Assembly (NCBI GenBank): GCA_022818135.1
Contig: JAFMSR010000003.1
Coordinates: 12,600,549-12,664,548 of the forward strand
Direction of reading: 5' to 3'
Source of the DNA: Saxidomus purpurata
Lineage: Eukaryota; Mollusca; Bivalvia; Venerida; Veneridae
DNA length: 64,000 bases
Positions 5,580-60,061 of the stretch are shown here, piece by piece; the stretch's first letter is position 1, and the number at the start of each line of letters is the position of its first letter. The position numbers and the translations under genes are program-made. The notes beneath the pieces were generated by a model, which worked only from the letters and a program-made list of their open reading frames with translations, was not told where the DNA came from and made no database searches.

Positions 5580-7194
5580 CAAAAGTACGGTGGCACAGAG
5601 GTGACATCCGCAACATTTTATTTATATTGTGGCCACAAGTTAGTAAGTTGTGGCCTCAACTTAATAAGTTGTGGCCACAACTTTTAAGTTGAGGCCACAA
5701 CTTACCAAACTTATTAAATTGAGGCCACAAGTTAATAACTTGTGGCCACTACTTATTATTGATAGCAGGGGACACGGGCTTACTCATTCAGGCGGGGATG
5801 TTTTTTACAAACGGTGTTTTCAGTGCTTAGGGCACAAGGCTGAGGGCTGAGTTCTTGTTAATCAGGGTGTTATCAAAGATTGGTAGCACTATAAGTAGAA
5901 CTGTATTGAGTGCAGGGGACAAGGGACAGAGTACAAATGTATGTGAAGCGGGGATGATACTTATATCAACAATATCACCAGGGTTGCATTGATACTAGAA
6001 GGCACGAGACTGAGAAAATAGAACTGATGACATATGAGAAGGTACGGTTGTGACCCCAGTGAGGTTCTAACCCGAAACCTCCGGTATAAGCGGCAGACAT
6101 CTTTACCCATCAACACCACTGCGTTTGTTCGTTGTCCTGTGGTGATGTATGCATAGGTTAATTCAAGGACTTTGAGGAAACCATCTAGTTACCCTGCATC
6201 CCCGTGAAGTTAGCCCCGTGGCACCTAGTTACCCCGCATCCCCGTGAAGTCAGCCCCGTAGCACCTAGTTACACCGCATCCCCGTGAAGTAAGCCCCGCA
6301 GCACTTAGTTACCCCGCAGCCCCGCTATGTTATCCCTATGCCACCAAGTCTCAACACGCCTCGTGGCATATGGTTTCCTCAAAGTACCGCTTGAATTAAC
6401 CTATGCATACATCACCACAGGACAACGAACAAACGCAGTGGTGTTGATGGGTAAAGATGTCTGCCGCTTATACCGGAGGTTTCGGGTTAGAACCCCACTG
6501 GGGTCACAACCGTACCGTACCTTCTCATATGTCATCAGTTCTATTTTCTCAGTCCCGTGCCCTCTAGTATCAATGCAACCCTGGTGATATTGTTGATATA
6601 AGTATCATCCCCGCTTCACATACTCTGTCCCGTGTCCCCTGCACTCAATACAGTTCTACTTATAGTGCTACCAATCTTTGATAACACCCTGATTAACATA
6701 AGCTCAGCCCTCTGCCCTGTGCCCTAAGCACTGAAAACACCGTTTGTAGAAGTAGCATCCCCGCCTGAATGAGTTAGCCCCGTGTCCCCTGCTATCAATA
6801 ATAAGTTGTGGCCACAAGTTATTAAGTTGTGGCCTCAATATAATAAGTTGTGGCCACAAGTTAGTAAGTTGTGGCCACAAGTTAGTAAGTTGTGGCCACA
6901 AGTTAGTAAGTTGTGGCCTCAACTTAATAAGTTGTGGCCACAAGTTAGTAAGTTGTGGCCTCAACTAATAATTGTGGCCACAAGTTAATAAGTTGTGGCC
7001 ACAAGTTAATAAGTTGAGGCCACAACTTATTAGTTGAGGCCACAACTTACTACTTGTGGCCACAACTTATTAACTTGGCCACAACTTATTAAGTTGAGGC
7101 CACAACTTACTAACTTGTGGCCACAACTTACTAACTTGTGGCCACAATATAAATAAAGTGTTGCGGATGTCACCTCTGTGCCACCGTACTTTTG
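5580..7194. mobile_element. FB1: 1.6-kb fold-back element with 21-bp-phased octamers
   Basis: The ends are inverted copies of each other: caaaagtacggtggcacaga at left and its reverse complement at right, nearly perfect for over 60 bp. The outer arms are arrays of GTGGCCAC, GTGGCCTC or GAGGCCAC separated by 13-bp AT-rich spacers. In the right arm 17 octamers start at 6808, 6829, 6850, 6871, 6892, 6913, 6934, 6955, 6974, 6995, 7016, 7036, 7056, 7076, 7096, 7117 and 7138; the left arm has six (5629, 5650, 5671, 5691, 5721, 5742). Further in, both arms contain inverted SINE-derived sequence, and the centre (about 6185-6340) is a 40-bp direct repeat (period between cccgtgaagt at 6201, 6241, 6281). 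Frames read through it (KLWPQVS repeats) are artefacts of the array. No transposase and no clear target duplication. Confidence 0.9.
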
Positions 7195-9382: not shown

Positions 9383-11561
9383 GGAGCTGATAGTCTCTGA
9401 GACACTAGTTCACTGCGATTTTTTTCAGCCTAAAGACATTAAGATTTATATATCAAATTGAAATAATGTAACATCAAAAGTTGCGACCCGCGCTAACTTA
9501 ATCCAAAACATCAGTTTATTTTATGAATAACTATTTGTTACTGTGCGTAACGAATATACAGATTTTCATCCTAGCGGATTTCGATTTCAATTGAATGATA
9601 CGTAAAGGCAACTCGGATGGACTTTAATGGATTACATTGACGTTCATTTTTATTTATCATTTATGTCCACCAGAAAAGCAATTATGATTTAAGTCATTAA
9701 ATGTATTTTAATGCATACTGTCACGTAAGCACATACCATACTGTATGCGTTAGGTCTAGACTATATATACATGTAGCTTAAATGTATGCCACATTTTAAA
9801 GTTGCAGGTACATAACTTGATGCATCATTTGGAATATTCATATACATTTTGTATTCTCGGCTTCGCCGTGACGTCATAATAGCCAGTTAACCAATCGGAT
9901 TACTAGATCGCGTTTATTTCTAGATTCTTTTGTTCACTGACAAAACAGTGTTGTGGTTGTGGTGGGGAGGGGTATAATAAGTCAGTTCTTGGAAGAATAA
10001 GAAAATATGCCATGTAAACAAACCACTTTCATTATTTAAATCATTTTCTTTCAAATTTCATATTTCATACAAAATAAAACAAACTTTGGAATGTAACGCA
10101 ATGCTTCTCATATGCAGTAGCAAATAGCTAGATTTGCAGTTTTTATCAAACATTTTGCTGTTACATGTATATTTATTTGAATGAGGTGTATTCTTTAGCA
10201 GACTCATTAGCAGAGTATGAATATAAAAAAAGTAAGATGTAATGTTTAAGGTAATATGCGACCAGTCTCCGACGTCAGACGTCCAAAAATAGTTTTTCGA
10301 ATTGTTGAGAAATTTTGCATAATGGTACTCTAACATGCTGTTAATTAAAAAGAAACACCATATGTTAGCTCTCTATCTGTGGAATAAAAACATACCAGAT
10401 TTAATATGATATTGCCGTCATTACTTCCAACGCGAAACTTTTAATATTGAAAATCTGCCCATTCGTCACCAAGAACGATAACCCCTGACACACTTTAAGG
10501 GTAGTTTTGGTCAAGAGAACGAGAACCAACCAACTAAAGACTCGCATTGGGATTAAGCCTAGTTCCTAACAAATAACATAAAACATCGTAAAGGGTGGTC
10601 TTCGCGCATTGAAGTTCGGACATCAAGAATACTGATGTCAATGAGCGCATTTTGTCACCATGAAGGTCTGCGTAGACAAAGATGAACGTTGAAGCAGCCA
10701 TCTTTTGATACGCAAAAGCAGACGCAGAATAATCATTATGGAACAAATAAAAACAGATAGTGATACCCATAATTAACAAAATTATATTGACTATATAGGC
10801 GCCGTTGTAAAATGGAGCGCAGACGAGAATGAACGTTTCAAGTTGGAGAAATTGAGAAAACACAATTCTCGCGGAGTAGAAGGTAATGTCTGGGCAAGTG
10901 GTGATAATTAGGGGAGCTGTCATGGTCAAAGCAATGACCTTTACTTGGAGAGGTTACAGTGATTTCAAATCATTTTGACTTGATATGAAGAAGTAGCATA
11001 ATATACAAATACATCCTACCGTCGAAATTGGTCGTTATTTGAACAAAAAACTATATAAACAAATCATTCCTAACTTTGTAGTTTAAATCGAAGTACATGT
11101 TTCAAATTCACCCCTCACGGTATTTCTTCTTCATTTCTATCGTCAACAATAACAAACACCTGGCAACACTATTTCTTGAGGAAACAACTTTGATATGCCA
11201 TGAAAGAAAAGCATAGTTACGTGAAAATTGTTTATGAATAAATCAATTTCTATCACTATTCTATTAGTAATTCTAACATGACTCACGATTTTGTCTCTTT
11301 ATACAAATAGTAGAAAAATTATGTTATATTAATTAAACCATAAAGCCACACGAAATTAATGACTTGGTCAACGGATTTCCCGCTCCATTATTTTTCAAAA
11401 TCAAAAAAAAAAAATTTTTTTTCAATTTGAGCTTCCGCCCGCATCAATTTTATAAACCAAGACCAAAAATTCAAAGCGGGCCTTTTTGTCGCAGAAAACT
11501 CGTAAATTTAGTACTTTCAAACCTACAATTCGATTATAAACGCCAGCAGAACATGTTCCCT
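9383..11561. other. Non-coding stretch
   Basis: No gene supported. A 131-codon minus frame at 10534-10929 has hydrophobic stretches but opens with TTG and has no recognisable domain. The A-run/T-run at about 11398-11425 followed by gcttccgcccgcatcaattt resembles 14230-14350, so it is probably repeat-derived. Confidence 0.5.
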
Positions 11562-13354
11562 ATGGAATGCGGGTTGGGACATGCCAAACTTGCTAATTGC
11601 TACTTGCGGATTGCCACTTACTTATTGATAAATGCTGGTGGAAACATGCCATTTAGTAATTGCTAATTGCCACTTGCTTCTTGCTACTTGTTTATTGCTA
11701 TAGTTACTTGCCACTTGCTTATTGGTCAATGCTGGTTGAAACATGCTACTTGCTAATTGCCACTTGCTTAACTCGGTTTTGCCAATTGTCACTTGCTACT
11801 TGCTTATTGCTAAATGCTTGTTGAAACATGCGTCTTGCTAATTGCCACTTGCTTATAGTGGTTTTGTCAATTGCACTTGCCTATTGCCAATTGCCACTTG
11901 CTAATTGCTACATGCTACTTTCCACATGCTAATTGCTACTTGCTTATTGTTAATTGTGGGTTAGGACTTGCTATTTGCCACTTGCTTATTGCGGTTTTGC
12001 TAATTGCAACTTGCCACTTGCTAATTGTCACTTGCTAAATGCCAATTGCCATTTGCTAGTTGGGACATGCCACTTGCTAATACTTACTTGCCACTTGCTT
12101 ATTGCTAGTTGGGACATGTCACTTGCTAACTGTCACTTGCTTATTGTTAATTGCTTATTGCCACTTACTTTTTTTTTAAAAAATTTTTTTTTTTTTCTTT
12201 TGCTTGCTTGTTACTAATCACTAGTTGCCAATCGGTTATCGGTATGACTACCGAACATGGCTAGGAAATAACGAACATTAGCTATTATCATTTTATTGAA
12301 GTCAAATATTAAGTTTTTGATGTTAAAATGGAACATGCATACCAAAAATATATTATATTCAATCACATTCAAGCTTTTAATTTATACAATTTCAAAACGC
12401 GTGATCTGATTCATGTTCATAAACATTGAACATGAGTTACTATTAAAAGTAAACAAGACATCTATAGTGGTGTATGTATAGATTATAATGTTATAAGTAT
12501 ATTATGAATTATTAATAATATTTCATACTGAAAATATATTTAATATAAATAATCTTGCAGCTGAAGTCTGAACAAATTAGACGAGCAAACACCGAGCATA
12601 AACTATCATCTGATCATTTTATATTTAAAATATATATTTTTTATTTAACTAGATCAAATTCATACTTTATATAAATTCGTGTTTGTTCTAAATATGTGAT
12701 ATAATACACGTTGTGTATTAATTTTTGTCTCGCTCTCGCAATCAAAAGCGTTTGAACGACTCCAAAGGTAACTGGCAAGTAGTAACAAGTGGCAAAAGCA
12801 AATAGCAAGTAGAAATTAGCAAAAAGCAATTAGCAAGTGGCAATTAGAAAATGATAATTGGCAATGAGAAAATGGCAAGTAGCAAGTGTCAATAAGCATG
12901 TAGCAATGAGCAAGTGGCAATTAGCAAATGCCAATTGGCAATTATCAAGTGACATGTCCCAAGTAGCAATTAGCAAGTCAAGTGGCATGTCCCAAGTAGT
13001 GCAATAAGAAAATGGCAGGTGGCAATTAGCAAGTGTCCCAATTGGCAAATGGCAAGTGGCAATTAGCAAGTGGCATGTCCCAACTAGCAAAGCAAGTCAA
13101 TAAGCAAGGGAGGCGACATCCCAAGTAGCAATTAAGTATGAGCAAGTGGCAATTAACAAGTGGCATGTATCAACTAGCAATTAGCAAGTGGCAAGTGACA
13201 ATAAGCAAGGGCAAGTGACAATTAGCAACTAGCAATGGCAAACGGATAAGGGTTGCAAATAACAAGTGGCATGTCCAAACCTGCAATCAGCAATAAGCAA
13301 GTGGCAATTAGCAAGTAGCAATTAGCAAGTGGCATGTCCCAACCCGCATTCCAT
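11562..13354. mobile_element. FB2: 1.8-kb fold-back element with heptamer arms
   Basis: The left end starts atggaatgcgggttgggaca and the right end is its reverse complement. Flanks are atgttccct (11553-11561) and atgttcccg (13355-13363), a probable 8-9 bp target duplication with one mismatch at the last base. The left arm (to about 12235) is a quasi-period-7 array of words such as CTTGCTA, ATTGCCA, CTTGCTT and ATTGCGG; the right arm (about 12770 on) is the inverse (TAGCAAG, TGGCAAT). The middle 500 bp is unique AT-rich sequence. No transposase. Open frames here (NCHLLIATCHL repeats) are artefacts. Confidence 0.88.
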
Positions 13355-13363
13355 ATGTTCCCG

Positions 13364-44354: not shown

Positions 44355-47300
44355 TTACTGTGTTTTGTTGAACAAAAGCCCAGGGATCTGGCCTACACTG
44401 ATGTCTGTGCCGTTTGAGCTTCTGTTACTGTTGCTGAACTCGAACTGCACCCCGTCGACTACGTGCACCGCCTCACCGTCAACACCTTTGTGGGTGGGGC
44501 GGCCTTTCATTATCACCTTCACGGTAAATACCCTTCGGGCGGGGATACGAATTGAGTTTGATAGATAGACTTCATAAGTTTGTTTGATACTATTTGTAAA
44601 TATAGAGAATTCATTTTGATGAACATCTTTACGTGTAATTTCATCATATACGAGTATCGCCGACTTCGGATAGGAATCATTACCGCTTGCTACCCCAAAT
44701 ACTTCAATGCCGTAAAGTTGTATAGGCTGGGTAACTGTGAATGAAATTGAATCTGCTGGGCCGTTTTGTTTCCACTGTCCATCGACGGACTGGAACCGGT
44801 GAACGCGCGTCATATTGCGATTGCGTGATGCGAGCATCAGCGGTTCTACGTTATCTTTGATATCACGTGGAAACCGGTTTCGTTCGTTTCTGCTAAACCT
44901 GTTCGGAAGCTGTTGCTCCTCCCCGTGAAAGTATTGAAAAATAGAAAGAGTTTCATCGTGCGAGAGCAATTGTCCGAGCGACACCTTTTGTGTAAAGTAT
45001 GTGACATCCATTACAGGGAATCGTATAAGGTAGAGAAGTTTACCGAGAACCTCACGCCGCGCTTCGTCCGTCGGCTGTTTCTTTTGTCGTCTGCATTCGG
45101 CATTTGCCCACGTGATACAACCTTCAAATACTGCTTCTTCACTAGCTCGCAGGTCGTCAGCTTTAATAATTCGTGCAACACATTCGTAACAAAGTTCCGC
45201 AAATCCTGGTTTACGGAGGACCGTGTTACCATTAGTAAGGGTGTATCTTACACATTTTTCGTACAATCCGGTTTCGTTGTAGATATGCGCTTGCTCCATG
45301 ATTTTAGACACGGTTTCATCGTGCATTTCGGCGTCTAAGTACTGGAAGCAGAGATTCGTTAAACCTTTAAGTTGAAACTTCTTGGCGGCATACAACATAG
45401 TGGCCACGTTGTCCGAATGGATATCGAACTCGTCGGTGTACATGTACCTGTTGAGGAAAAACAATGGAATTACAAGCATGGTAAATGACGAGTTTATCAA
45501 ACCTGCTTGAAACATTATCAGCTGGTACTTGCAGATTTTAAGCAATGTTTTCACTATATAATTAACCATATCGTAATATGATTACTAGCATATTGGTATC
45601 GACGGGAAGTTTGCACCGACATATTTCAATTCAACGCGCTCTATTAAGATAGAGTCAAGTGAAAGTTTTAAAGCGATTTATTTTAAAACTACAAGGTGGA
45701 CTAGAAGTCATTTTTTCAGACCGGCGGAAGTGGGCTAAGCATTGTTAAATAAGGCTGAAAAGCGTGCGTATCCCGGGAACCATCGTACAAGGTACCGGCA
45801 TGCGCATGCGTCAACAAGAAGCAACGATTTGAAATTTTACAAGAGGTATAACTTATACAAAATTCTTGTACATTGTACAATCATGTATTCCCCCCCCCCG
45901 TCCGTCCGTCCGTCCGTCCGTCACACTTTTGTCCTAAACATAACTATAAAAAGTATTCAAGGGAATTTATTCAAACTTTACTTACAGACAGGGGACATTG
46001 AGAGAAACTGCAGTGTACACGGACCTTAAATCTTGCTTGTCCTATTTTTGAATAATATCCCTTTTTTGAATTTTCTTGTCCGGGCTATAACTCCTTAAGA
46101 ACGGAACCGAAATGATTCAAATTGCATACACTTACAGAGGACATAAAGACGCAGGGCAGTGTTGAAGAACCATAACCGTTCCTAACTCAATTTTTGATGA
46201 GCGTCAATTTGGTAGGTAGTAGGTAGTTGGTAGTTGGATATTCGAATAACCAACTACCTTCTAGTTGGTAGTTGGTTATTCGTAATTCCAAACTATAAAT
46301 AACTGGTAGTTGGTAATTCAATACACTATCACCAGAATGAAATGTTCAAACACACCATACCCCTTCCTTAACACAGAATAAAGCAGAAGACCTAGTTGGT
46401 TATTGGTGTGAATCTCCAACTACCAACCAGAAGGTAGTTGGTAATTCGAACTTTGCATGTATTTCTCTCAAAATAGAAAGTATTTTCCCGGAAGAAATGT
46501 AACTGATATATAACAAGATAGATGTGTTCTACAACATGGCAACATCCTCTTCTCCCTATGTGCACTAGGGGACTCAGTTGGTTATTCGCGTGAATCCCCA
46601 ACTACCAACCAGAAGGTAGTTGGTAATTCGAACTTTACATGTATTCCTCTAAGAAAGGAAAGTATTTTTCCGGAAGAAATGTAACGGATATATAACAAGA
46701 TACATGTGTTCTACAACATGATACACGCCCTTCTCCCTACGTCCACCAGGGGACTCGTTGGTTATTTGCGTGAATCCCCAACTACCAACCAGAAGGTAGT
46801 TGGCAATTCGAACTTTGCATGTTTTCCCGTCAAAATAGAGAGCATTTTTCCGGAATAAAGTAACTGATATATAACAAGATAGATGTGTTCTACAACATGG
46901 TAACACCCCTTCTCCCTACATCCACCAGGGGACTCAGTTGGTTATTCGCGTGAATCCCCAACTACCAACCAGACGGTAGTTGGTAATTCGAACTTTGCAT
47001 GTATTCCTCTCAAAAAAGAAAGAATTTTTCCGGAAGAAATGTAACTGATATATAACAAGATAGATGTGTTCTACAACATGGTAACACCCCTTCTCCGTAC
47101 ATCCACCAGGGGACTCAGTTGGTTATTCGCGTGAATCCCCAACTACCAACCAGAAGGTAGTGGTAATTCGAAATTTGCAGTATTCCTCTTAAAAAAGAAA
47201 GTATTTTCCCGAAAGAAAGTAACTCATATATACAAGATAGATGTGTTCTACAACATGGCAACATCCTCTTCTCCCTATGTGCACTAGGGGACTCAGTTGG

Positions 47301-50300
47301 TTATTCGCGTGAATCCCCAACTACCAACCAGAAGGTAGTTGGTAATTCGAACTTTGCATGTATTCCTCTAAAAAAGGAAAGTATTTTTCCGGAAGAAATG
47401 TAACAGATATATAACAAGATACGTGTGTTCTACAACATGGTAACACGCCCTTCTCCCTACGTCCACCAGGGGACTCAGTTGGTTATTCGCGTGAATCCCC
47501 AACTACCAACCAGAAGGTAGTTGGTAATTCGAACTTTGCATGTTTTCCCGTCGAAATAAAAAGTATTTTTTTCGGAATAAATCTAACTGATATATAACAA
47601 TATACATGTGTTCTACAACATGGCAACAACCCCTTCTGCCTACGTCCACCAGGGGACTCAGTTGGTTATTCGCGTGAATCCCCAACTACCAACCAGAAGG
47701 TAGTTGGTAATTCGAACTTTGCATGTTTCCCGTCAAAATAGAAAAGCATTTTCCCGGAATAAATGTAACGGATATATAACAAGTATAACAAGATAGATGT
47801 GTTCTACAACATGGTACACCCCCTTCTCCGTACATCCACCAGGGGACTCAGTTGGTTATTCGCGTGAATCCCCAACTACCAACCAGAAGGTAGTTGGTAA
47901 TTCGAAATTTGCATGTTTTCCCGTCGAAATAAAAAGTATTTTTTCGGAATAAATGTAACGGATATTTAACAATATACATGTGTTCTACAACATGGCAACA
48001 CCCCTTCTCCCTATGTGCACTTGGGGACTCTGTTGGTTATTCGGTGAATCCCCAACAACCAACCAGAAGGTAGTTGGTAATTCGAACTTTGCATGTTTTC
48101 CCGTTAAAATAGAAAAGTATTTTTCCGGAAGAAAGTAACTGATATATAACAAGATAGATGTGTTCTGCAACATGGTAACACCCCTTTCTGCCTACGTCCA
48201 CCAGGGGACTCAGTTGGTTATTCGGTGAATCCCCAACTACCAACCAGAAGGTAGTTGGTTATTCGGATTTTGAATGTTTTTTTACTGAAAACAGAAAAGT
48301 TTTTTTCAGTAATTACTATAGGGGATATATTACCAGATAAAGTTTTACTGTCATTTGCATCATCTTTAAAGAGCATGCACCACGAGCAATAATCATAATT
48401 CAAATACGCAGTACGTTATCAAGTATAAATTTCACCTATATAGCGCCGAGCTTTTTAGAATTTGAGCACAAAGTGCTGCGAATTTTAAAGAAGTCTGTCT
48501 GACTAAGATCTAGGATTGTCCAGTGCTAGCCGTGTACATTTAGCACTTCCCATGTACTAACCTTTTCCTTTTGGATGAATATAATGGTACCAACACGAAA
48601 AAGGAAGTGAAAAGGGCTTCAAGTTCACTACCATTATTTCATATCTTGTTAAAATCAAATGTTCTATATGTTTCAACTACGTTACTATCACTAACAACTG
48701 GATGTACATTTAATTCCAAGTAATATTTGTAATTATGTACTTTTACGTCAGAAAAAATGACGTGCGTTAATATTTGTTTGGAAATCAAACATTACATTTA
48801 CTTGATTACAATAAAAGGACAGCTGTTATTTAGACAAGAACCATCTATCACGGTGCTGACAGTATGTGTTGATTATGAGAAATTTAGTAGTAACACAGGC
48901 CATTTTTAAGTTGATGTAGCATGAATTTAACCGACGACATCGTGGAAAAAAACAAAAGTCAAAAATATTTTGTTCCGCTAGTTCCAATTCAATACAACAA
49001 TAACAACAACAACAACCATTTTACAATAAACCCAGTCTTGGCTTGCCAACCCTGTTTCTCTCATGTAGCTGTACTGCATATTATCAAACGCACTCGTAAA
49101 TACTTTACAGACGTAAAGCATGTCTGCTTTAATCCCTGTACGAAAAAAATACGAATATCAGTGTGTTGTAATTATTTGATACATATATAATCACTATTTC
49201 GAAAATGAATGATATATCTCAGCAGTAATCCGTTGTTATTAAATGATTAACAAGTATCTTATAACATGCAAAGTTCGAATAACCTACTACCTTCTGGTCG
49301 GTAGATCTAGTTGGGGATTCACGCGAATAACCAACTGAGTCCCCTGGTGGAAGTAGGAGAAAGGAGGTGTTACCATGAATACATTTATCTGGTTATAGAT
49401 CAGTTACAGTTATTATTGAAAAAAGCTATCTGTTTTCCTTGAAATACATTCAAAATCCGAATTACCAACTACCTTCTGGTAGGTAGTTGGGGATTCACGC
49501 GAATAACCAACTGAGTCATCTGGTGGATGTAGGGAGAAGGGAGTGTTCCCATGTTGTAGAACACATCTATCTTGTTATAAATTAGTAACATTTATTTCAG
49601 ATAAATACTGTCTGTTTTGACGGGAAAACAGCACAGTTCGAATTACCAACTGGGGGGGGGGGGTTACCATGTTGTAGAACACATCCATCTTGTTATATAT
49701 TCGTTAATATTTTTCCGGATAAATACTTTCTATATTGACGGGAATACATGCAAAGTTCGAATTACCAACTACCTTCTGGTTGGTAGTTGGGGATTCACGC
49801 GAATAACCAACTGAGTCCCCTAGTGCACATAGGGAGAAGGGGGTCTTGCCATGTTGTAGAACACATCTATCTTGTTATATGTCAGTAAAATTTATTCCGG
49901 AAAAATACTTTCTATTGTAACAGGAAAACATGCAAAGTTCGAATTACCAACTACCTTCTGGTTGGTAGTTGGGGATTCACGCGAATAACCAACTGAGTCC
50001 CCAAGTGCACACAGGAAAAAGGGGGTGTTACCATGTTGTAGAACACATCTATCTTGTTATATATCAGTAACATTTATTCCGGAAAAATACTTTCTTTTTT
50101 GAGAGGAATACATGCAAAGTTCGAATTACCAACTACCTTCTGGTTGGTAGTTGGGGATTCACGCGAATAACCAACAGAGTCCCCTGGTGGACGTAGGGAG
50201 AAGGGGTGTTACCATGTTGTAGAACACATCTATCTTGTTATATTTCCGTTACATTTCTTCCGGAAAAATACTTTCTTTTTTGAGAGGAAAACATGCAAAG

Positions 50301-53300
50301 TTCGAATTACCAACTACCTTCTGGTTGGTAGTTGGGGATTCACGCGAATAACCAACTGAGTCCCCTGGTGGATGTACGGAGAAGGGGGTGTTACCATGTT
50401 GTAGAACACATCTATCTTGTTATATATCAGTTACATTTCTTCCGGAAAAATACTTTCTATTTTGAGAGGAATACAGCAAAGTTCGAATTACCAACTACCT
50501 TCTGGTTGGTAGTTGGGGATTCACGCGAATAACCAACTGAGTCCCCTGGTGGACGTAGGGAGAAGGGGGTGTTACCATGTTGTAGAACACATGTATCTTG
50601 TTATATATCCGTAACATTTATTCCGGAAAAATACTTTTTATTTTGAGAGGAAAACATGCGAAGTTCGAATTACCAACTACCTTCTGGTTGGTAGTTGGGG
50701 ATTCACGCGAATAACCAACTGAGTCCCCTGGAGGACGTAGAGAGAAAGGGGTGATACCATGTTGTAGAACACATCTATCTTGTTATATATCCGTTACATT
50801 TATTCCGGAAAAATACTTTCTTTTTTGACGGGAATACATGCAAAGCTCGAATTACCAACTACCTTCTGGTTGGTAGTTGGGGATTCACGTGAATAACCAA
50901 CTAAGTCCCCTAGTGCACACAATGAAAAGGGGGTGTTGCCATGTTGTAGAACACATGTATATTGTTATATATCCGTTACATTTATTCCGGAAAAATACTT
51001 TCTTTTTTGAGAGGAATACATGCAAAGTTCGAATTACCAACTACCTTCTGGTTGGTAGTTGGGGATTCACGCGAATAACCAACTAAGTCCCCTAGTGCAC
51101 ACAATGAAAAGGGGGTGTTGCCATGTTGTAGAACACATGTATATTGTTATATATCCGTTACATTTATTCCGGAAAAATACTTTCTATTTTGACGGAAAAA
51201 CATGCCAAGTTCAAATTGCCAACTACCTTTTGGTTGGTAGTTGGGGATTCACGCGAATAACCAACTGAGTCCCCAGTGCACACAGGGAAAAGGGGGTGTT
51301 ACCATGTTGTAGAACACATCTATCTTGTTATATATCAGTTACATTTCTTCCGGAAAAATACTTTCTTTTTTGAGAGGAATACATGCAAAGTTCGAATTAC
51401 CAACTACCTTCTGGTTGGTAGTTGGGGATTCACGCGAATAACCAACTGAGTCCCCTGGTGGACGTAGGGAGAAGGGGGTGTTACCATGTTGTAGAACACA
51501 TCTATCTTGTTATATTTCCGTTACATTTCTTCCGGAAAAATACTTTCTTTTTTGAGAGGAAAACATAGAAAGTTCGAATTACCAACTACCTTCTGGTTGG
51601 TAGTTGGGGATTCACGCGAATAACCAACTAGGCCCCCTGCTTTATTCTGTGTTAAGGAAGGGGTAGTGTGTGTTTGAAAATTTCATTCTGGTGATAGTGT
51701 ATTGAGTTACCAACTACCAGCTGTTATATAGTTACTAATAACCAACTACCAACTAGAAGGTAGTTGGTTATTCGAATATCCAACTACCAACTACCTACTA
51801 CCTACCAAATTGACGCTCATCAATTTTTGAGTTATAGCCCCTTATTGATTTTTCACATAACACTTTTTGTATGAAACATAATTCCGAAAGTATGAATGGG
51901 AATTTTAAACTTTACACAGAGAAAGAGGACATTGAGAGAAAGTGCAGTGTACAAAGACCTCAACTCTAGCTTGTCCTATTTTTTAATTATCTCCCTTTAT
52001 TACTTTTTCTTGTCCGGGCCATAACTCCTTAAGAATGGAACTGAATTGATTCAAATTGCATACAGTCATAGAGGACATTATGATGCAGTGCAGCGTCCAA
52101 GAACCATTACTTAAACTACTCTGTGTTTGAGTTATTCCCCTTGATTGATTTTTTGCATAAAACGTTTGTGTAGAGCATAAATTTCAGACTTTTAGAGTAG
52201 AAGTGCGAAACGGGTCGCACCGATTATAGCCTCTTTAGAGGATGGTGGACCCAATAAGCACGATTACAAACAAACAAAACTAGAAGTGTGAACACAGAGA
52301 AAGTGCAGGTGAATAACCCTCATCATGTAATGCATAATTACTTATATGTTTTAACCTATACCATATCCATTCCTCTCACCTCAAATTTCTTGGTCATAGA
52401 AAGAGCACTCGGCGGGGGGATGGCCATGTCTAACATGGCTGTTGTTTTACATGCTAAGGGTCTTCACAGGTGCATCTTGGGAGAAATCCCAGGCTCGGCC
52501 GGAACTCCTACATCAGCGGCTTGCCGAGCTTTCAGACAAACTTGAATATAATGTATGCTCTGGATGAAGATAATGGCCGTGACTATTAACAATCTAAATT
52601 ACGAGGGTATTCATTTGCCCGCAGTACTTGAACGCCTTGCCGATCTCTCACTTTGTTTCAAGTTTTTGTGTCACCTTTTCGGAGAAAAGGCAATACATAG
52701 GGATCGCTTTGTTCGTCCGTCAAACAAACTTAACGTTGGCTATGACTTTGCCATTTCTTAAGATTTCTTTAAACTATACAAATTGTATTGCTTATGACAA
52801 AACGGTTATGATGCCGCCAGATGTTGTAGGTCAAGGTCATATTTGACAGAGTTATGCCCCTTTTTGTTCTTAGATTTTATCACGAAAACTTAACGTTGGC
52901 TATAACTGTGCCATTTCTTAAGATTTCTTCATCAAACTTTCAAATTGCATTGCTTATGACATAAGGGTCATGATGCCGCCAAATTGTGTTGGTCAAGGTC
53001 ATATTTGATAGAGTTATGCCCCTTTTTGTGCTTTGATATTGTCACAAAATTATTGGTTATTCTGAGAAAGCGTAAGAGGGCGACACAAGTGTTCTACTGA
53101 ACACCCATCTAGTTATTGATCGAATGAACTCCTATTTTCTCCCCATGTAATCATGTATGTATATCAAAACCTATTAGCTATTAAATATTCACATTCTTCC
53201 ATTATTTAATTTAACCATCGGTATGTGAAAGAATTATTGACTCTTTAAACATTTGTTGTATGCCGAATCAATTATTCCTACGGATGTAGGCGAAACCGCC

Positions 53301-58652: not shown

Positions 58653-60061
58653 TTAATATATGGAACGCCAAATCTACATATACTCAAATATTTGAAGAGG
58701 TCTTTAAATATTTGGAGAGCTCTTCAAATAATATTAGAGGTCTCAATTTCAATTAGAGATATCTCCAAATAATTATAGCGCGCAAAAATTGTAATAGAGA
58801 GGTCTTTAAATAATTGGAGAGCTCTCTAATTCAATTATTGATATCAAAAATTGATTTAAAGCGCGCAATAAATGAATTGAAGACCTCTCCAATTCAATTG
58901 AAGATATCAAAAATTAAGGTGTATTTCAGCTGTTTTTAAGAGCTCTGTAATTGAATTGAAGAGGTCTCTAATTGATTTGAAGACCTCTGTAATTGTTTTA
59001 TAGCGCGCTACAAATTAATTTATAGAGGTCTTGAATTCAATTAGAGACCTCTCTAAATCTATTTGAGCGCGGTGAAATTCAATTTTAGATATCTTGAAAT
59101 CGATGTTAATACATGCCAAATCTACATATACTGAAGTATTTAAAGAGGTCTTTAAATATTTGGAGAGCTCTGTAAAATATTTGGAGAGGTCTACAAATTA
59201 ATTAAAAACATCAAAAATCCGCTTGTAGCGCGGTTTAAATCCATTGATTTAGAGACATCTATAATTCAATTGAAGAGGTCTCCAATTGAATTAGAGACCT
59301 CTATAATTGTTTTACAGCACGCAAGAAATGAATTAATGGTATCAAAAATTTATTTAGAGAGGTCTCTTATTCATTTATACCGCGCTTCAATATAATCCAT
59401 GTACAACCTTGAAATAGAGAGCTCTCAAATAAAACAATTGAAGCGCGGTACAATTCAATTATAGACCTCTCAAAATCATTTTTGATATCATTAATTCATT
59501 TCTTGCGCGCTATAAAACAATTATAGAGGTCTACAATTTAAATGGAGACCTCTTCAATTGAATTATAGATGTCTCCAAATTAATGGATTTAAACCGCGCT
59601 ACAAACGAATTTTTGATATCAAAAATTGATTTATAGACCTCTCCAAATATTTTACAGAGCTCTCCAAATATTTGAAGACCTCTTCAAATAATTGAGTATA
59701 TGTAAATTTGGTATGAATTCAAGACAATTAAAATTGAATTTCACCGCGCTCAAATTGATTTAGGGAGGTCTCTAATTGAATTCAAGACCTCTATAAATTA
59801 ATTTGTAGCGCGCTATAAAACAATTACAGAGGTCTTCAAATCAATTAGAGACCTCTTCAATTCAATTACAGAGCTCTTAAAAACAGCTGAAATACACCTT
59901 AATTTTTGATATCTTCAATTGAATTGGAGAGGTCTTCAATTCATTTATTGCGCGCTTTAAATCAATTTTTGATATCAATAATTGAATTGGAGAGCTCTCC
60001 AATTATTTAAAGACCTCTTCAAATATTTGAGTATATGTAGATTTGGCGTTCCATATTAATA
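58653..60061. mobile_element. FB4: 1.4-kb fold-back element, array of 21-bp-phased octamers
   Basis: The element is 58659-60055, flanked by TTAATA (58653-58658 and 60056-60061). Ends are tatggaacgccaaatctaca and its inverse. The body is about 59 octamers of form AG-NNNN-CT, mainly AGAGGTCT, AGACCTCT, AGAGCTCT, AGATATCT (or TGATATCA) and AGCGCGCT (or ACCGCGCT), separated by 12-14 bp of nearly pure A/T. Left-arm starts: 58696, 58716, 58736, 58757, 58777, 58798, 58818, 58839, 58860, 58881, 58902, then 58939, 58960, 58981, 59002, 59024, 59045, 59066, 59087; a second module runs 59144-59379 and the right arm mirrors both (59418-59676, 59743-60011). Each arm has two modules, each introduced by ccaaatctacatatact or a variant. 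No coding sequence. Confidence 0.93.

Follow-up and report, generated by a model that had tools for sequence, protein, structure and literature searches.

The reason for the very long, repetitive inverted ends of some transposons is an old open question, to which multiple transposase sites are the standing guess; so far this has been demonstrated for few sites, in Galileo. Drosophila FB elements have arms of short repeats, approximately one, two and three helical turns long, whilst the TnsB/MuA end arrays are rows of ~22-bp sites under an RNase-H-fold transposase. Galileo, a P superfamily element of Drosophila, is described as having very long, internally repetitive, foldback-like inverted repeats, in which the THAP domain of its transposase binds several sites in vitro, and its authors suggest that the specificity of the transposase arises from many short sites (PMC3688188). 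The non-autonomous Tetris element of Drosophila virilis is reported to carry repeats of ~220 bp within its long inverted ends, suggested to be extra transposase sites (PMC4079207). IS3EU and GingerRoot elements are marked by TA..TA ends and target duplications that are usually 6 bp long (PMC10045372). IS3EU and foldback elements also appear together in a further account, the cited part of which lists IS3EU only in a satellite table (PMC8268682).

Here we describe FB4, a ~1.4-kb foldback (giant-palindrome) element of the bivalve Saxidomus purpurata, one copy of which lies at positions 58659–60055 of a 64-kb window, the whole stretch of DNA that was analysed. Its short-repeat arms are like those of the Drosophila FB elements, although the words and the superfamily differ; the likeness to TnsB/MuA, which are bacterial and have few sites per end, is one of analogy only. 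With Galileo it shares very long, internally repetitive inverted repeats, but the Galileo-G repeat was found to contain three sites, whereas each half of FB4 contains 29 of the 58 consensus sites at a near-21-bp pitch, and the ends differ (PMC3688188). The FB4 array would be an extreme case of such Galileo-like site arrays. FB4 resembles Tetris in being non-autonomous and in having repeats within long inverted ends, whereas the cited part of the Tetris report describes no 21-bp lattice of changing words (PMC4079207). It is like IS3EU and GingerRoot in its TA..TA termini and 6-bp duplications, but is non-coding and nearly all arm, and the cited part of their description does not mention long site arrays (PMC10045372). 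Literature searches on foldback, bivalve, IS3EU, GingerRoot, subterminal sites and 21-bp palindromes, mostly outside subscription journals, returned no such lattice in the titles or starts of abstracts of the matches listed, and a search on Drosophila repeat lengths returned no match.

The FB4 element and its copies

The window copy is exactly 1397 bp long and is set between two 6-bp TTAATA duplications (58653–58658 and 60056–60061), other copies being flanked by other 6-mers; its ends are TATGGAACGCC..GGCGTTCCATA. Most of the element consists of long, internally repetitive inverted repeats, as expected of a foldback element, with an arm complementarity of 97–98% in the outer parts and 90% in the inner parts, and no open reading frame of at least 100 aa is present in this copy. 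On the forward strand, the left terminal inverted repeat (TATGGAACGCCAAATCTACATATACTC...; 58659–58695), defined by end mapping, arm alignment and the genome count of its terminal 27-mer, is followed by an outer arm (58696–59094) with phased sites in two blocks (58696–58909, pitch 20.6 bp; 58939–59094, pitch 21.1 bp), an internal relic of the terminus (TTAATACATGCCAAATCTACATATACT; 59106–59132), and an inner arm (59144–59386) with phased sites and weaker symmetry (90%). The palindrome centre (59387–59441) contains one site, irregular gaps of 39 and 24 bp, and a 10-bp subfamily indel. The reverse-strand features comprise the right inner arm (59442–59683), the mate of the relic terminus (59695–59719), the right outer arm with its phased sites (59743–60018), and the right terminal inverted repeat (...GGCGTTCCATA; 60019–60055). 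The two internal terminus-like copies, which were recognised by eye and again in the arm-to-arm alignment, suggest that the outer arms may be a later layer round an older, smaller element. Long zinc-finger frames and a sulfotransferase-like frame, noted by eye, mark the source as an animal.

In the genome assembly (1.135 Gb; 4232 contigs), the terminal 27-mer of FB4, allowing up to three mismatches, has 749 matches (387 forward and 362 reverse), compared with none in either orientation for a reversed 27-mer control; all 749 were counted, and further copies were drawn from the approximately 100 matches listed. A search with the whole element gave 744 first-look candidates, the best 40 of which were scored (97–100% identity, in the query's direction). 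Amongst these most similar copies 36 are complete, with 6-bp duplications of varied sequence that are exact in 32 and match at five of six positions in the other four. L022 and L027, which have common flanks, were taken as one insertion and L027 was dropped. Mean pairwise divergence among 39 copies is 1.6%, and a tree of 35 copies is almost star-like, with 26 of its 32 inner branches open. FB4 is a young, non-coding transposon; its transposon character, its palindrome and the site lattice described below are all demonstrated.

The termini of FB4, TATGGAACG..CGTTCCATA, have the TA..TA form of IS3EU and GingerRoot, and the duplications of complete copies have the 6-bp length of that group. By ends and duplication length only, we provisionally assign FB4 to the IS3EU/GingerRoot type, as a foldback DNA transposon that is non-autonomous, the membership being provisional because its transposase was not found. 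Target duplications of the P superfamily, including Galileo, are 7–8 bp long, and thus differ from the 6 bp of FB4.

Perfect duplications flank all seven odd-length relatives (L071–L077), including five internally deleted derivatives of 367–538 bp (L072–L076), each with its own; the full array may therefore not be necessary. The deletion junction of L073 preserves a 21-bp interval. A 38-bp remnant seen by eye (L095), comprising one terminus and TA between two copies of TGAAAC, resembles the product of an abortive excision.

Among the FB4 copies and odd-length relatives examined, neither an autonomous relative nor a transposase was found, and no coding copy was found among the approximately 100 listed of the 749 termini. 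A 4461-bp pair of termini (L071) was considered as an autonomous partner and rejected, as it is an FB4 copy with a foreign insert; the left (~360 bp, 86%) and right (~500 bp, 79%) parts of this insert recur in L063, elsewhere within FB4. The 249-aa frame of the L071 insert gave no Pfam match above cut-off. By eye, the insert in L071 and L063 has TTAAAGAC-like ends, and the 249-aa frame is DIRS-gag-like in look.

Words, spacing and phase of the site array

A preliminary description of this locus, made from its letters, reported an array of approximately 59 octamers of the form AG-NNNN-CT, nearly all 20–22 bp apart. The regular array is present at 58659–60055. Counted with a list of ten core hexamers, the window copy contains 55 sites, with 44 of the 54 intervals at 20–22 bp and 34 at exactly 21 bp, and the 1398-bp consensus contains 58, with 49 of 57 intervals in that range. 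The outer letters AG..CT, said to be nearly fixed, are strictly so in only 37 of the 55 window-copy sites, and the form WGMNNKCW, which fits 48, is the better one. WGMNNKCW occurs 54 times in the window copy, whereas 1000 first-order shuffles contained it 7.3 times on average and 17 times at most. Over the first half of the consensus, the autocorrelation of G+C at lags 20–22 reaches 0.31, a value that did not exceed 0.16 in any of 2000 shuffles, and the top identity lags of the window copy are 21, 42 and 63. Because each arm is the reverse complement of the other, the second half is mostly a repeat of the first, and only about half of the sites count as independent.

The column profile of the consensus over 21 bp reads WGMNNKCW, two free bases, AAWTSAWTT, and two free bases, such that each unit contains two symmetric motifs one turn apart. 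AAWTSAWTT is a near-fixed second motif in the consensus spacers, and the spacers are not composed of A/T only, as had been claimed; at least one G or C is present in each of the 44 regular spacers of the window copy (18% of their letters).

The sites were also held to face one side of the helix over the whole element. Phase is kept within blocks (mean pitch 20.6–21.1 bp) but is lost between them, at consensus gaps of 37, 57, 26, 39, 24, 26, 46 and 37 bp, six of which are 0.38–0.52 turn off. At 10.5 bp the phase vector over the whole element has a length of 0.11 in the consensus and 0.09 in the window copy; other trial pitches gave 0.38 (10.4 bp) and 0.43 (21.0 bp) for the consensus, and at no pitch did the element as a whole come close to full coherence, whilst the first half of the consensus alone gave 0.75 at 20.5 bp. 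A same-face scaffold over the full length of FB4 is rejected by this loss of phase between blocks.

Substitutions and indels in the array

When the arms are compared with each other over the first half of the consensus, with a looser 69-word site mask and 113 gapped positions set aside, they differ at 4 of 232 site positions and 22 of 354 others. In the 39 young copies, non-CpG substitution amounts to 0.50% in sites, 0.75% in the nonamer and 1.13% at free bases. The rate ratio corrected for three-base context is 0.58 when substitutions are counted (z −3.4; the copies are not independent), and 0.75 when events are counted (z −1.6, not significant). Of the 414 site positions, 10 are variable in at least two young copies, compared with 51 of the 924 other positions (p = 0.011); singletons number 54 in sites and 158 elsewhere (p = 0.063). 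As the tree is almost star-like, selection is tested weakly by the young copies, and their use as the sole test was rejected. CpG positions within sites change at 0.0213 per site and copy, compared with 0.0049 at non-CpG site positions (30 copies), which would fit methylated copies.

An older subfamily was drawn from 54 loci of the listed terminus matches (L041–L070 and L078–L101; some represent the same element), with old copies defined as more than 5% from the young consensus. Seven complete copies lie at 6.5–8.3%, and their duplications are perfect in six, the seventh (L097) having lost its first base in the alignment and so not being scored as exact. Two of nine copies, L098 (1.2% from the consensus) and L100 (1.8%), were not counted as old, and the rearranged L041 was left out. 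L099 and L101 are two of four copies chosen for a length departing from 1398 bp. An early count over five old copies, in which L041 is still included, gave non-CpG differences of 5.0% in sites, 7.5% in the nonamer and 10.9% at free bases.

Non-CpG changes common to at least 60% of the seven old copies are found at 5 of 414 site positions and 47 of 924 others (p = 3.4 × 10−4), whilst private events number 77 in sites and 218 outside; the ratio of shared to private changes is thus lower in sites (odds ratio 0.30, p = 0.008). On rotation of the site mask a ratio as low was obtained in 0.2% of shifts, and global alignment with another aligner, at four thresholds, gave p = 0.001–0.014 for the same comparison. 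When fragments are included (14 old copies), the ratio test gives p = 0.027 at a cut-off of 0.6 and p = 0.22 at 0.75. Within these 14 copies private changes, too, are scarcer in sites (p = 0.027 and 0.004 at the two cut-offs), so mutation may account for some of the shortage. The shortage of shared changes at FB4 sites is real; we infer that it reflects selection in the lineage that moves.

The changes that are shared inside sites, with CpG included, are nine (four at CpG), seven of them at the two centre bases and two being outer A/T swaps. Hence all nine lie at centre or outer-W positions, compared with 46 of 90 private events, and none lies at the G, M, K or C of a site, where 44 of the 90 private events fall (p = 0.004). 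Of the indels in the seven old copies, only one is common to at least four, a 10-bp insertion in an already irregular gap, and none is shared within the regular grid; the 38 private or minor indels are scattered, three of them starting in a site. The preliminary description would have been refuted by relatives whose octamers drift as fast as their spacers or whose spacing varies freely. Neither pattern was seen, octamers changing less than spacers in the transposing lineage.

These patterns bear on whether the sites are read at all. The arms might be a degenerate 21-bp tandem array between functional 37-bp ends, unread by any protein, that spread through slippage, unequal exchange and conversion between the arms. 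Segments do recur inside the arms, the outer arms are homogenised to 98%, and both the fewer private changes in sites of the 14 old copies and the non-significant event-based ratio of the young copies are in keeping with such a passive origin. However, sites are avoided far more strongly by shared than by private changes, the shared changes within sites spare exactly G, M, K and C, and the regular grid is without an indel common to the old copies. We regard a passive repeat as rather unlikely.

A protein for the array, and other foldback families

We consider it reasonably probable that the FB4 arms are arrays of predicted binding sites for the protein that mobilises the element, probably its transposase, FB4 itself being a non-autonomous member of the IS3EU/GingerRoot type. 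The transposase would come from another source, cut at TATGGAACG..CGTTCCATA and insert the element with a 6-bp staggered duplication. Each 21-bp unit would present the two-fold-symmetric WGMNNKCW, with AAWTSAWTT half a unit off, and neighbouring molecules in a block would consequently be spaced by two helical turns. By binding many sites, the transposase, or a partner protein of the missing autonomous element, may find and pair both ends. Duplication of units, inverted duplication included, may have enlarged the array, which may be maintained because copies with damaged sites move less. The suggestion in the preliminary description of a scaffold for a cooperative protein was fair in outline, but the object is a transposon dispersed through the genome, with ends and duplications of its own, which that description omitted. 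If a protein binds the sites, a transposase is likelier than a structural scaffold protein.

An array of the same function could belong to an element of another superfamily with duplications of ~6 bp, for which Dada- or Polinton-like lineages provide examples. The transposase was not seen, which leaves room for such a placement, but the combination of TA..TA ends with 6-bp duplications matches that described for IS3EU/GingerRoot (PMC10045372), and we think a different superfamily unlikely.

A second foldback family is represented in the window at 11561–13355; it starts with TATGGAATGCGGG and closes with the inverse of this sequence. The family is multicopy (631 candidates, the best 40 of which were scored), and its duplications are exact in all ten copies checked, being 6 bp long in seven and 7 bp in three. 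A 7-bp word, TTGCYAM, is repeated along its arms, and in both arms the top identity lags include peaks at 7, 14, 21 and 28. FB4 and this family have the same first seven terminal bases, TATGGAA, with different arm alphabets. In three of the 12 rows ending at query position 1146, the extra internal DNA of the family contains no stop-to-stop frame longer than 72 aa.

This second family also informs on whether a host protein could be the reader of the array, as when an animal repressor, architectural or silencing factor occupies it and the element either profits or is silenced. A two-fold-symmetric site at a near-21-bp pitch within blocks, and the constraint on sites, would suit such a factor; however, an unrelated word is used by a family that shares its first 7 bp with FB4 and has similar duplications, such that element-specific proteins fit better than one host factor, and phase is lost between blocks. 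A host platform therefore appears improbable. That FB4 is a source of dsRNA, its read-through transcripts folding to a long hairpin and its 21-bp pitch reflecting small-RNA processing, would fit the long near-perfect palindrome but is highly improbable, as a hairpin needs complementarity only, constrained octamer bases with a free centre are not expected, and the pitch varies (20–22 bp) with irregular gaps.

The window contains two further inverted structures. A third foldback (5580–7194) comprises a 21-bp array of GTTGTGGCCACAACT, with ends that differ from those of FB4; by eye, no target duplication was seen. It gave 2319 first-look candidates; among the scored copies, the match mostly begins only at about position 48, and some copies lie close together in clusters. 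A large inverted pair of ~180-bp tandem arrays is present at 46298–51725.

The two families with common terminal bases may indicate a modular organisation in this superfamily. Tentatively, and short of an even chance, the ends (TATGGAAYGC) and the arm word would be separate modules, in which the same cutting ends are combined with family-specific alphabets on a common 7/21-bp pitch, each element being a multivalent address for its own protein and the alphabets diverging in an arms race. Such a race, if it occurs, would be between transposases or against non-autonomous parasites. FB4 has hundreds of ends within a single genome, an older and a younger subfamily, and dozens of sites that vary among themselves, and thereby allows a site requirement to be read from evolution. 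The shared changes already indicate which four letters per octamer matter, and because the neighbouring second family combines identical first seven terminal bases with another word, the modular idea can be tested directly.
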